A stretch of 41,205 bases of DNA, taken from positions 1 through 41,205 of the forward strand of contig JAJYFY010000007.1 of the NCBI GenBank assembly GCA_021785265.1, written 5' to 3'. The first letter of the stretch is position 1. Every line of letters starts with the position of its first letter. This document shows, in pieces, positions 26,247 to 30,969 of this stretch. The notes beneath the pieces are model-generated. The model did not search any database, was not told the DNA's origin, and worked only from the letters and a program-made list of their open reading frames with translations. Both the position numbers and the translations under genes were made by a program. This DNA comes from Pseudomonadota bacterium. GTDB taxonomy: Bacteria > Pseudomonadota > Gammaproteobacteria > JAKAQQ01.

Positions 26247-28937
26247 TCAGTGGGCCAGTCCCCAGTTGGGTCCGACCCCTACCTGGACGGTCAGAGGAAC
26301 CGTCAACTCTACGGCGGAGCTCATTTCCTGGCTGATGCCCGATGTGACGGCATCCAGTTCCTCCTCGGAAACCTCAAGGACCAGTTCATCGTGGACTTGA
26401 AGGATGAGTCGGGATGCACAGCCATGGTCACGGAGCCAACGTTCGGCACCGATCATGGCGATCTTGATGATATCGGCTGCGGTACCCTGCATGGGGGCAT
26501 TGATGGCGGCTCGCTCGGCGGTCTGCCGCAATCCAGGAGCACGGCTTTCAAGGTCGGGCAGGTAGAGACGCCGGCCCAACAGGGTTTCGACGAAACCTTG
26601 TTGGTGAGCCTGTCGCCGGGTAGCCTCGAGAAAATCACGGACTCCTGAGTACCGAGAAAAGTAGCGGTCCATATAGTTTTTGGCCAGTTCACGGGAAAGC
26701 CCGAGTTGTCGGGCAAGCCCAAAGGCAGACATCCCGTAAATGAGTCCGAAATTGATGGTCTTGGCCAGTCGGCGCTGATCGTCGTTGACCGCTTCGGATG
26801 GGATGCCGAAAATCTCCGCCGCGGTGGCACGATGGACATCCTGGTGTGCGGCAAAGGCGGCCAGAAGACCCGGGTCTCCCGAGAAATGCGCCAGGATCCG
26901 GAGTTCGATCTGTGAATAATCAAGGGAGACGATCCGGGCGCCGGGTCCGGCGACAAACGCTTGGCGGATTCGCTGGCCGGCTGCTGTGCGGATCGGGATG
27001 TTCTGCAGGTTGGGGTCCGAGGAGGACAGCCGGCCCGTGGCGGTCACTGCTTGATGGTAGCTGGTGTGGATCCGGCCCGTCTGCGGATTGATTTCCTGGG
27101 GTAGTTTTTCCGTGTAAGTGGACCGGAGTTTGGCCAGGCTCCGGTATTCCAGGATCAGGTGCGGAAGCGGATGGTGCAAGGCGAGCTCCTCGAGTACCGC
27201 TTCCGAGGTAGAACGCTGTCCTCCGGGAGTTTTTCCTTGGGCGGGAATGTGCAGTTCATCGAACAGGACGGCTTGCAGCTGCTTGGGCGAATCCGGATTA
27301 AACTCCCGGCCTGCCAGTGCGTGGGCCTGTCCCCGCAGCTCCCGGAGGGCGGAGTCGAGCTCACGCGACTGTTCAGCAAGCTGTTCGCGGTCAATCCGGA
27401 CACCGGTCCGCTCCATTCCGAAGAGGACTGAGGACAGCGGGACTTCAATGGATTCGACCAGTCTGGCCAGGCGGGGGGTCGTCTCCAGTGAATGGCTGAG
27501 GTGCTGATGGAGTCGCCAGGTGAGCCACGCGTCCGCCCCAGCATAGGCCGTTGCCTGGTCCAAGGGAACCTCATCAAACGTTTTCCGGTGCTGACCACGA
27601 CCCGTGAGCGATTCGAAGGGGGTCTTATGGATCCCGAGATAGCGCGAGGCCACCGAATCGAGATCGTGCCGGCCCGCTGTACTGTTCAGGACGTAGCTCT
27701 CAAGCATGGTGTCGGAACGGATTCCGGCCAGTACAATGCCCTCGTTCATGAAAACGTGACGGTCGTACTTGATGTGGTGCCCAACCTTTGGGCGGGCCGG
27801 ATCCTCCAGCAGGGGGCGCAGCGCTTCAAGAACCGCCTGGGCCGGTAACTGTGTGCCGACGGCTTCGGGTCGGTGTCGGAGCGGGAGGTACACCGCCCTC
27901 TCGCCATCGAGGCTGAAGGACAGGCCGACGAGGCGAGCTTCCAGGTAGTTGAGGGAGGTGGTTTCGGTATCGATGGCAATCAGTTCCGCTCGGGCCAGGC
28001 GTTCCCGCCACTGCTCGAACTCCGCCCATTCGGTGATGCAGATGGAGTGTCCTGCACCGGGCGCGGGGGGGGACTCCGGTCGATCCAATGCGATCAGGGG
28101 ATCTTGGATCTCGAGTGTGGCCAGGGTTTCGCTGAGCCGTGTAGGGTCGGGAGGGGAGAGCCGAAGGGTCTCCAACCGCGCTTCCAGCGGGACACCGCAA
28201 TCCAGGGTGACGAGGCGGCGCGCCAACTCCAGCGTACCCTGTCCGTCCTGCAGGGCCCGACCCGCCTGTCCGGGAACTTCCATCCGGTGTGCCCACAGCT
28301 GGTCCAGAGATCCGTATTGCTCGAGCCAGCGGGCCGCTGTTTTGGGTCCGACTCCCGGGATGCCGGGGATATTGTCGGAACTGTCGCCGACCAAGGCAAG
28401 GTAATCGACCATCTGCTCCGGCCAGACCCCATATCGGGCCTTGACCCCCTCCCGGTCCAGCGTCTCTCGCGTCACCGGGTTGACCAGGCTGATATCCGGG
28501 GTGACCAGCTGGGCGAGATCCTTGTCGGTGCTAAACAAAAAGACCCGGAATCCCTGCCCGGAAGCTGTGCAGGCCAGAGTGCCGAGTATGTCGTCGGCCT
28601 CCACGCCGGGAACCTGAACGATCGGAAAGCCCATCGCCGCGAGGGCTGCCTGCAAGGGTGCGATCTGGACACCCAGTGATTCCGGCATGGGCGGGCGCTG
28701 GGCTTTGTACTGGGGGAAGAGGGTATGGCGAAAGGAACGACCGGGACTGTCAAAGACGATTGCGGCCCACGGGGCCGGGTACTGCTCGCGCAAACTACGG
28801 ACCATGTTGAGCACCCCCTTGATGGCTCCTGTGGGAAAGCCGCGGGAGGTGGCGAGGGGCGGAAGCGCGTGAAAAGCCCGGTACAGGTAGGCGGTGCCGT
28901 CGACCAGGAGGATCCGTCGTTCGTCAGTGGTGGGCAT
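26247..28937 (-). CDS. polA: DNA polymerase I
   Basis: Pol I (896 residues) fills gaps in repair and removes RNA primers. The 5' nuclease domain (about 1-290) begins RILLVDGTAYLYRAFHALP. The 3'-5' exonuclease domain retains its acidic residues in AIDTETTSL, HHIKYDRHVF and AYAGADAWLTW, so proofreading looks intact. The polymerase domain has VSLDYSQIELRILAHFSGD, RRLAKTINFGLIYGMSAFGL and LQVHDELVLEV. The ATG at 28937 is chosen because homologues start there; it lies inside the 3' end of lptM (14-base overlap), with no independent ribosome binding site, implying coupling. Confidence 0.97.
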   Translation of the reverse strand: MPTTDERRILLVDGTAYLYRAFHALPPLATSRGFPTGAIKGVLNMVRSLREQYPAPWAAIVFDSPGRSFRHTLFPQYKAQRPPMPESLGVQIAPLQAALAAMGFPIVQVPGVEADDILGTLACTASGQGFRVFLFSTDKDLAQLVTPDISLVNPVTRETLDREGVKARYGVWPEQMVDYLALVGDSSDNIPGIPGVGPKTAARWLEQYGSLDQLWAHRMEVPGQAGRALQDGQGTLELARRLVTLDCGVPLEARLETLRLSPPDPTRLSETLATLEIQDPLIALDRPESPPAPGAGHSICITEWAEFEQWRERLARAELIAIDTETTSLNYLEARLVGLSFSLDGERAVYLPLRHRPEAVGTQLPAQAVLEALRPLLEDPARPKVGHHIKYDRHVFMNEGIVLAGIRSDTMLESYVLNSTAGRHDLDSVASRYLGIHKTPFESLTGRGQHRKTFDEVPLDQATAYAGADAWLTWRLHQHLSHSLETTPRLARLVESIEVPLSSVLFGMERTGVRIDREQLAEQSRELDSALRELRGQAHALAGREFNPDSPKQLQAVLFDELHIPAQGKTPGGQRSTSEAVLEELALHHPLPHLILEYRSLAKLRSTYTEKLPQEINPQTGRIHTSYHQAVTATGRLSSSDPNLQNIPIRTAAGQRIRQAFVAGPGARIVSLDYSQIELRILAHFSGDPGLLAAFAAHQDVHRATAAEIFGIPSEAVNDDQRRLAKTINFGLIYGMSAFGLARQLGLSRELAKNYMDRYFSRYSGVRDFLEATRRQAHQQGFVETLLGRRLYLPDLESRAPGLRQTAERAAINAPMQGTAADIIKIAMIGAERWLRDHGCASRLILQVHDELVLEVSEEELDAVTSGISQEMSSAVELTVPLTVQVGVGPNWGLAH

Positions 28938-29082
28938 ACGCGGCGGCCGGTCGGGAATGGGTGGCCGGTGCCGGGAGCTTATGGTGCACGTGAGGGGGGG
29001 GGAGGTAGAGGGGACCCTTCTGCCCACAGCCGACGAGCCCCACGAGGCAGCAAAGGATCAATCCCGCCCGCAAGGCTTTCAT
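28924..29082 (-). CDS. lptM: LPS-assembly lipoprotein LptM (YifL family), small gene
   Basis: A 52-codon gene starts at the ATG 29082-29080 with GGAG nine bases upstream and a TATACT box at 29113-29118. The product has a short lipoprotein signal (KALRAGLILCCLVGLVGC) whose lipobox cysteine is C19, followed by GQKGPLYLPPP. The CGxKGPLYxP start is the hallmark of LptM, an outer-membrane lipoprotein that stabilises the LptD-LptE translocon in E. coli. The tail is rich in His, Pro and Ala. A run of nine C (28994-29002) encodes the prolines. The gene overlaps the polA start by 14 bases. Confidence 0.85.
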   Translation of the reverse strand: MKALRAGLILCCLVGLVGCGQKGPLYLPPPHVHHKLPAPATHSRPAAAYAHH

Positions 29083-29217: not shown

Positions 29218-30969
29218 TTGAGCGCGGAAGACTGCTGGCCGGCACGATGGGAAGCGCTGCGGGGTATCGACCCCGTGACCGGATTGTTGCGGAGGGCGCA
29301 CTGGCTTGAGGCCGTCAGCCAGCGCGGAGCGCACGGGATCCCCCCGGAGGGGGCGGCCGCACTCCTGCTGGTGGGGCTCGAGGGGTTGGAAGAACGCATG
29401 CCGCGTCCGGGGGACCCCTCGCCCGAACGCTTGCTCCAGGCCGTGTCCGAGCGTTTAAAGAGCCTCGTTGGTGATCTGGATCTTCTGGGGGTCGTCCGCG
29501 AGGGGGTGTTCGGTTTTTCCTTGCCCGGGTTCGCGAGTGAACAGTCCTTGATGAGTTTCGCTGAAACCCTTCTCAAGGCTCTCCAGCGGCCGCTTCCGGT
29601 TGAGGGTGCCGCCTGCCCGGGATTGCCCGCCCGACTGGGCGTCGTCCTCTACCCGAACGACCCGGATTTTCCGGTCGAGATCCGGCTTCGCCAGGCTGAA
29701 CTCGCGCTTTGGGAAGCTCGGCGGCAGGGTCTCCGCTCTCTCCTTTATTCCGAGGAGATGATGCAGCGCTGGGACCACCGCCGCCAGATGGAATCGCGCT
29801 TCACGGAAGCCCTTCGTGCCTGCAAACCGTTTCTCCGTTACCAGCCGATCGTGGACATGTCCGACGGCACCCTGTTTGGATTCGAGGGATTGATCAGCTG
29901 GCGGCCCGATGATCGCCAGCTGGTCCCAGCCGCCCAGTTTATCGAGGGCATCGAGGCCGATACGGAGCTCGCCCGGGAACTGGGCCAGTATGTTCTGGGA
30001 TACGCCGCCGAGCATATCGAGCACTGGTCTGCGGTTGGTTTTGAAGGCGTGATCACGGTCAACATCAGTGCCCGTCACCTCCTTTGCGAGGGTTTCCTGG
30101 ATGATGTGGCCGAAGCCCTGCAGCGGATCCGGCATGAGCGAGATCGACTCATGATCGAAGTGACGGAAACCAGCCCCATCACCGACTTGGCTCGCGCACG
30201 GCAGGTTATCGAAACCCTGCAATCCTGGGGGGTACGGTTTTTGCTGGATGACTTCGGCACTGGAAATGCCACGATGCAGTACCTTCAAGAGCTGCCGGTC
30301 GATGGCATCAAGATCGAAAAACGCTTCGTGGGAGACCTCCTCCGGCACGATCAAGCGCTCGGGATCGTGACGGCGCAGTTGTTGCATGCCCAGAGCCAGG
30401 GACTCACCGTGATCGCGGAGGGCGTGGAGAATGAAAGCGTGGGCACCCTGCTTCTTGAGCTGGGGTGCCGATATGCCCAAGGATACTGTATCGCCCCTCC
30501 GTTACTGCCCTGGGATATCCCCAACTGGTTGGGCCGATGGGCTCCGCCTCCCCAGTGGTATCAGCGGGATCGTCGTCCGTGGCCGATCAACCACGTCGAT
30601 GGCATGGCTGCTGCCTTTTCGCATCTGCGTTGGTTGGAAGCCCTCCGCCACGCCGTGACCCGGGCGACCGTAGGCGAGTCCGGATTTTTGGATCCCACGG
30701 ATATCCTCGGTCGGCCCGAGTCGTGTCGGCTCGATGGCTGGCTCAGGCGGACCATGCACGAAGGTTCCCCGACCGAATCATTTTTTTTCGCCCGTCTCGG
30801 CCAATTGCACGAATCCATCCATGCCCAAGGCTTGCGCTTCGCCTCCGACTGGTCGGAGCGGAAGAACCCGTCTGCAGCGCAGATTTTCGATCGCGACCTC
30901 GCCCGGCCCTCGCAGGAACTCATGACCCGCCTGGTCAGCATTCTGGGTCAGATCGACGCGCCGGACTAG
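29218..30969 (+). CDS. Degenerate GGDEF - EAL - CZB protein, probable zinc-responsive c-di-GMP phosphodiesterase
   Basis: A 583-residue cytosolic protein counted from TTG 29218. A GGDEF-like domain (about 20-200) starts DPVTGLLRRAHW but has REGVF instead of GGDEF, so it should not make c-di-GMP. The EAL domain (about 205-440) keeps all catalytic positions: E in GFEGLISW, N in VNISARH, E in IEVTET, DD in LLDDFGTG, K in IKIEKRF, E in AEGVEN and Q in AQGY. The C-terminus (about 460-540) resembles a chemoreceptor zinc-binding domain with H469, C503 in SCRLDGWL, H531 and H535. The frame is open back to 28894, but that part is antisense to lptM and polA; no clear ATG exists, so the start is uncertain. 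Confidence 0.85.
   Translation: MSAEDCWPARWEALRGIDPVTGLLRRAHWLEAVSQRGAHGIPPEGAAALLLVGLEGLEERMPRPGDPSPERLLQAVSERLKSLVGDLDLLGVVREGVFGFSLPGFASEQSLMSFAETLLKALQRPLPVEGAACPGLPARLGVVLYPNDPDFPVEIRLRQAELALWEARRQGLRSLLYSEEMMQRWDHRRQMESRFTEALRACKPFLRYQPIVDMSDGTLFGFEGLISWRPDDRQLVPAAQFIEGIEADTELARELGQYVLGYAAEHIEHWSAVGFEGVITVNISARHLLCEGFLDDVAEALQRIRHERDRLMIEVTETSPITDLARARQVIETLQSWGVRFLLDDFGTGNATMQYLQELPVDGIKIEKRFVGDLLRHDQALGIVTAQLLHAQSQGLTVIAEGVENESVGTLLLELGCRYAQGYCIAPPLLPWDIPNWLGRWAPPPQWYQRDRRPWPINHVDGMAAAFSHLRWLEALRHAVTRATVGESGFLDPTDILGRPESCRLDGWLRRTMHEGSPTESFFFARLGQLHESIHAQGLRFASDWSERKNPSAAQIFDRDLARPSQELMTRLVSILGQIDAPD

Follow-up and report, generated by a model that had tools for sequence, protein, structure and literature searches.

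The window, a 41,205-nucleotide stretch of gammaproteobacterial DNA, encodes a protein with a degenerate GGDEF domain, an EAL domain, and a putative CZB zinc-binding domain at its C terminus. The question raised by this locus is whether a CZB domain may govern the breakdown of c-di-GMP. Regulation by CZB has been demonstrated for a cyclase and for chemoreceptors. We found no biochemical test of CZB control on EAL output, and no experiments on any GGDEF-EAL-CZB protein, in the open-access literature. The reading that we favor, with a probability of about 0.5, is a c-di-GMP phosphodiesterase of the known GGDEF-EAL-CZB type, controlled by CZB and altered in how it binds substrate. The features on which the argument draws are as follows.

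29218 to 30969, + strand: degenerate GGDEF-EAL-CZB gene, 583 aa, start codon TTG (backed by a three-species comparison)
29266 to 29730, + strand: GGDEF domain, dead at its signature (Pfam PF00990)
29497 to 29511, + strand: REGVF replacing the GGDEF signature, residues 94 to 98 (alignments)
29797 to 30501, + strand: EAL domain with metal/catalytic residues E223, N282, E314, D344, D345, K365, E401, and Q421 (Pfam PF00563 and site table)
29896 to 29898, + strand: Ser227 codon AGC replacing the ExLxR arginine (R179 of RocR, R192 of BlrP1; alignments)
30316 to 30318, + strand: Glu367 replacing the KxD aspartate (site table)
30595 to 30966, + strand: predicted C-terminal CZB zinc-binding domain, a helical bundle (Pfam, model, and profile search)
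30622 to 30624, + strand: predicted zinc ligand H469 (family alignment and profile)
30724 to 30726, + strand: predicted zinc ligand C503 (family alignment and profile)
30808 to 30810, + strand: predicted zinc ligand H531 (family alignment and profile)
30820 to 30822, + strand: predicted zinc ligand H535 (family alignment and profile)

The 583-aa frame is open throughout, and its TTG at 29218 is the sole in-frame start common to the three congeners. The frame stays open upstream to 28897 in the window. A longer frame from 28894 was rejected, as the extension is unconserved and both congeners (L003 and L004) are interrupted by in-frame stops, which lie 60 and 93 bases before the start. A scan for promoters and terminators gave no signal above shuffles. 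The genomes are assemblies of uncultured proteobacteria. Divergent from the EAL-CZB gene, a small 52-aa lipoprotein frame (MKALRAGLILCCLVGLVGCGQKGPLYLPPP...) at 28924 to 29082 (- strand) resembles LptM (YifL); it lies immediately before and overlaps polA (true start near 28937).

We then compared the locus between genera. In a sister genus (g3), polA and the FAA-hydrolase gene flank an orthologue in the same position. Two N-terminal PAS domains were found in the single g3 protein scanned, and the other two g3 open frames are similar in length. In another genus (g2), the region from the FAA-hydrolase gene to polA is occupied by other genes and contains no EAL-CZB gene. In a tree of EAL domains, the six members of the family group in a single clade, separate from the remaining EAL proteins of the window genome. 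The protein of the window genus has no N-terminal PAS domain, and CZB is its only recognizable sensor. For this reason it is a small test case for whether a single zinc/redox domain is able to drive c-di-GMP synthesis as well as breakdown.

A CZB domain at the C terminus of an EAL protein had been thought uncommon in the preliminary description of the locus, a view that we abandoned: the GGDEF-EAL-CZB architecture is neither new nor rare. CZB occurs in 62 of 387 GGDEF-EAL proteins of Acidithiobacillia, where a Protoglobin-GGDEF-EAL-CZB protein is conserved across the class (PMC6416229), and EAL-CZB is a named subgroup amounting to 3.4% of CZB proteins (PMC8262984). Among 369 gammaproteobacterial genomes, a further 14 proteins had CZB after GGDEF-EAL, and CZB itself was present in 121 of the 370 genomes sampled, about one in three. 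By their description, Acidithiobacillus AFE_1712 (Protoglobin-GGDEF-EAL-CZB) and AFE_1725 (PAS-GGDEF-EAL-CZB) share the domain order and the C-terminal CZB with the window protein but have a protoglobin or PAS sensor at the N terminus, both of which it lacks (PMC6416229). The EAL-CZB subgroup, catalogued without biochemistry, likewise shares the EAL output, the CZB domain, and an arginine after the ligand cysteine, whereas the window protein has Asp at a nearly universal motif Gly (PMC8262984). The combination of a dead GGDEF domain, a missing ExLxR arginine, and CZB as the sole recognizable sensor was not found described in open-access papers.

To gauge selection on the gene, we calculated dN/dS pairwise among the three congeners. 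Values were 0.019 to 0.036 for EAL, 0.11 to 0.15 for CZB, and 0.13 to 0.20 for GGDEF, with 0.08 to 0.10 overall. Between the window and its congeners, the EAL domain shares 96 to 97% identity, more than any other EAL domain of the genus (72 to 95% for orthologue pairs of the others), and the conservation extends over the whole domain, beyond the active site. The neighboring PolA, UvrD, FAA hydrolase, and Dph6-like proteins are 73 to 85% identical between the window and one congener (G001). The best-conserved EAL domain of the genus, with a dN/dS of about 0.02, is therefore under strong selection and is not decaying. Judged by this pattern of substitution, the EAL-CZB protein is functional. We considered a decaying pseudogene and rejected it on the same ratios (about 0.02 to 0.04 in EAL, and the low overall value).

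The cyclase signature of the protein is lost. The GGDEF domain is readily recognized at residues 17 to 171 (40.8 bits against a Pfam cutoff of 23.8), and, as described earlier, it is degenerate at its signature, which reads REGVF. The GG(D/E)EF signature and the metal/GTP residues of a diguanylate cyclase are absent, and the remaining cyclase-site residues, kept by 16/16 outside relatives, have been replaced as well. The sister genus has RERVF at the signature, and the domain is dead in both genera. Every outside relative examined keeps an intact GGDEF signature; among the proteins compared, only this family has lost it. In the favored reading, the domain is a dead scaffold.

The EAL domain (residues 194 to 428; 191.8 bits against a Pfam cutoff of 31.3) had been credited with an intact catalytic set. 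The metal-binding and catalytic part of that claim holds, because all eight residues equivalent to E175, N233, E265, D295, D296, K316, E352, and Q372 of RocR are present; the catalytic lysine is kept, as is DDFGTG in loop 6. The claim fails at two other positions. The arginine of ExLxR is Ser227 in 3/3 congeners of the window genus, compared with Arg in the three sister-genus orthologues, in 16/16 outside relatives, and in four nondegenerate paralogues of the window genome. The KxD aspartate is Glu in 6/6 family members. The lost arginine is listed as substrate binding in RocR (R179; PMC7911125), and its counterpart in BlrP1 (R192) holds a phosphodiester of c-di-GMP (PMC3989770). Full phosphodiesterase activity should therefore not be assumed, and we propose that substrate binding is altered or weaker because of Ser227. 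The disappearance of this arginine under strong purifying selection raises the question of what role an EAL domain has in its absence. A further EAL paralogue in the genus (L013, L088, and L089) has a degenerate EDLAxL motif and evolves faster (72 to 84% identity) than the EAL-CZB protein.

The same substitutions could mean that the protein is a noncatalytic regulator, in which EAL serves as a module that binds proteins, or binds c-di-GMP weakly, and the zinc state of CZB switches partner binding. We regard this as unlikely, though as the strongest competitor of the favored reading. The serine fixed in all three congeners where relatives have arginine, the family-wide KxE, and the dead GGDEF domain all fit it, as does the exceptional conservation of the whole EAL domain, which would suit a constrained interface. 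Degenerate GGDEF-EAL regulators are also well documented; in inactive EAL domains, ExLxR is described as the motif that decides c-di-GMP binding (PMC10333796). Against a noncatalytic role, all metal ligands are retained together with the lysine and loop 6, and Leptospira LIC_20198, with Gly at the R179 position, still appears to function as a phosphodiesterase in vivo (discussed in PMC12943098).

Possible parallels for such a regulator are FimX, LapD, and YdiV, the last of which neither cleaves nor binds c-di-GMP. FimX and LapD resemble the window protein in having a degenerate GGDEF domain and an altered EAL domain, but they keep ExLxR for binding and lose catalysis (PMC10333796), whereas the window protein keeps the catalytic residues and has lost the ExLxR arginine. 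A zinc- or redox-switched nonenzymatic regulator that retained the metal site, dropped the substrate arginine, and had its EAL surface fixed by a partner would reverse the FimX/LapD route (binding kept, catalysis lost). To this more specific version we assign a rather small probability.

The case for zinc depends on whether the C-terminal domain is a CZB. PF13682 matches residues 469 to 538 with 23.9 bits in the full protein and 27.3 bits (E = 4.6e-6) in the isolated domain, the latter slightly under the Pfam cutoff of 29.4. When the PDB was searched with this region, as a single sequence and as six sequences, no CZB structure matched; the top match of these small queries was a designed repeat protein that contains numerous weak repeats. 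The wider family was more informative. The C-terminal domains of the window protein and its relatives all matched CZB (20/20; best E value, 3.9e-14), and a profile of the 20 sequences reached the CZB structure of E. coli DgcZ (3t9o; E = 3.8e-6) with the H...C...HxxxH pattern in register. Because of this profile match, membership of the domain in the CZB family is very likely on sequence grounds. A structure model built from the 20-row alignment was a confident helical bundle (mean pLDDT, 85; pTM, 0.78) in which H469 lies on the first long helix, C503 just ahead of a short helix, and H531 and H535 on the next long helix; the ligands were thus located at the level of helices. In a fold search, the model matched 3t9o at a TM score of 0.61 (target length), no better than other helical bundles. 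The full-length model was poor (pLDDT, 66) and was left out for domain contacts. The preliminary description, which had placed H469, C503, H531, and H535 at C-x27-H-x3-H spacing and proposed a CZB profile search and a helical-bundle prediction as checks, was thus correct in positions and spacing and was supported by both checks, with the single-sequence score just short of the Pfam cutoff and the ligands placed at helix level.

The ligand positions are fixed across the family. All four are invariant in six orthologues that are otherwise only 36 to 86% identical in the domain; in the set of 20, the C, the W, and the last two H residues never vary, and at least 90% of the sequences have the first H. 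This pattern counts against the idea that the EAL metal site is itself the target of zinc, as in Vibrio cholerae ZpdA, with CZB no more than a dimerization element. We think this idea very improbable. It draws on purified ZpdA, which is reported to be inhibited by zinc and to depend for its activity on other cations such as Mn2+ (PMC12607878). ZpdA is like the window protein as proposed here in being a zinc-linked c-di-GMP phosphodiesterase; it differs in that zinc is reported to inhibit it and to repress its gene via Zur, and its abstract names no CZB domain (PMC12607878).

One position of the Cys motif departs from the consensus. Position 4 of the alpha3 motif is nearly universally Gly in CZB domains (PMC8262984); it is Gly in the sister genus (CRLGSWL) and Asp in the window genus (CRLDGWL). 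Two outside relatives have Ser, so that this Gly is not absolute and the Asp does not exclude CZB membership. The motif Asp, together with Ser227, KxE, and the CZB score below the Pfam cutoff, was counted against the phosphodiesterase reading. The only CZB of the window genome above the Pfam cutoff is a stand-alone protein (L001; contig C22, 1282 to 1833, - strand) with a CTLGQW motif and HxxxH, adjoining a fasciclin-like protein and a sigma factor.

C503 and the arginine that follows it are conserved in the family alignment, which would also suit a domain that senses oxidants or redox state instead of measuring zinc supply, the signal being C503 oxidation or redox-driven loss of available zinc. 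HOCl oxidizes the CZB cysteine in DgcZ and TlpD (PMC8262984), and for McpA, available zinc is reported to serve as a redox messenger (PMC13370339). As an exclusive account, we consider this improbable; as inputs to CZB, oxidant sensing and zinc-availability sensing are equally open.

For the CZB-controlled phosphodiesterase, we picture a cytoplasmic protein whose output is the EAL domain, with c-di-GMP hydrolysis probably retained. The C-terminal CZB domains would form a homodimer binding one zinc per subunit through H469, C503, H531, and H535. Loss of zinc through scarcity or C503 oxidation would change the packing of the bundle, and repacking would in turn alter the geometry and activity of the EAL dimer. 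The sequences themselves establish the domains, the ligand set, the substitutions, and the selection; hydrolysis, zinc binding, dimerization, and coupling we infer, and zinc control of the window protein is suggested by homology only. DgcZ (3t9o, 4h54), with which the window protein shares the H...C...HxxxH pattern and probably zinc-dependent control of c-di-GMP turnover, differs in its N-terminal CZB, its active GGDEF output, and its lack of EAL. By analogy with DgcZ, our guess is that bound zinc would keep the activity of the enzyme low.

A natural CZB-dead version exists among the related proteins. L045 (G163 C3, 2791 to 3198, + strand) is a GGDEF-EAL protein with a CZB-like C terminus that has neither the ligand cysteine nor the histidines; an EAL-CZB protein on the same contig (L037) keeps the ligands in part.
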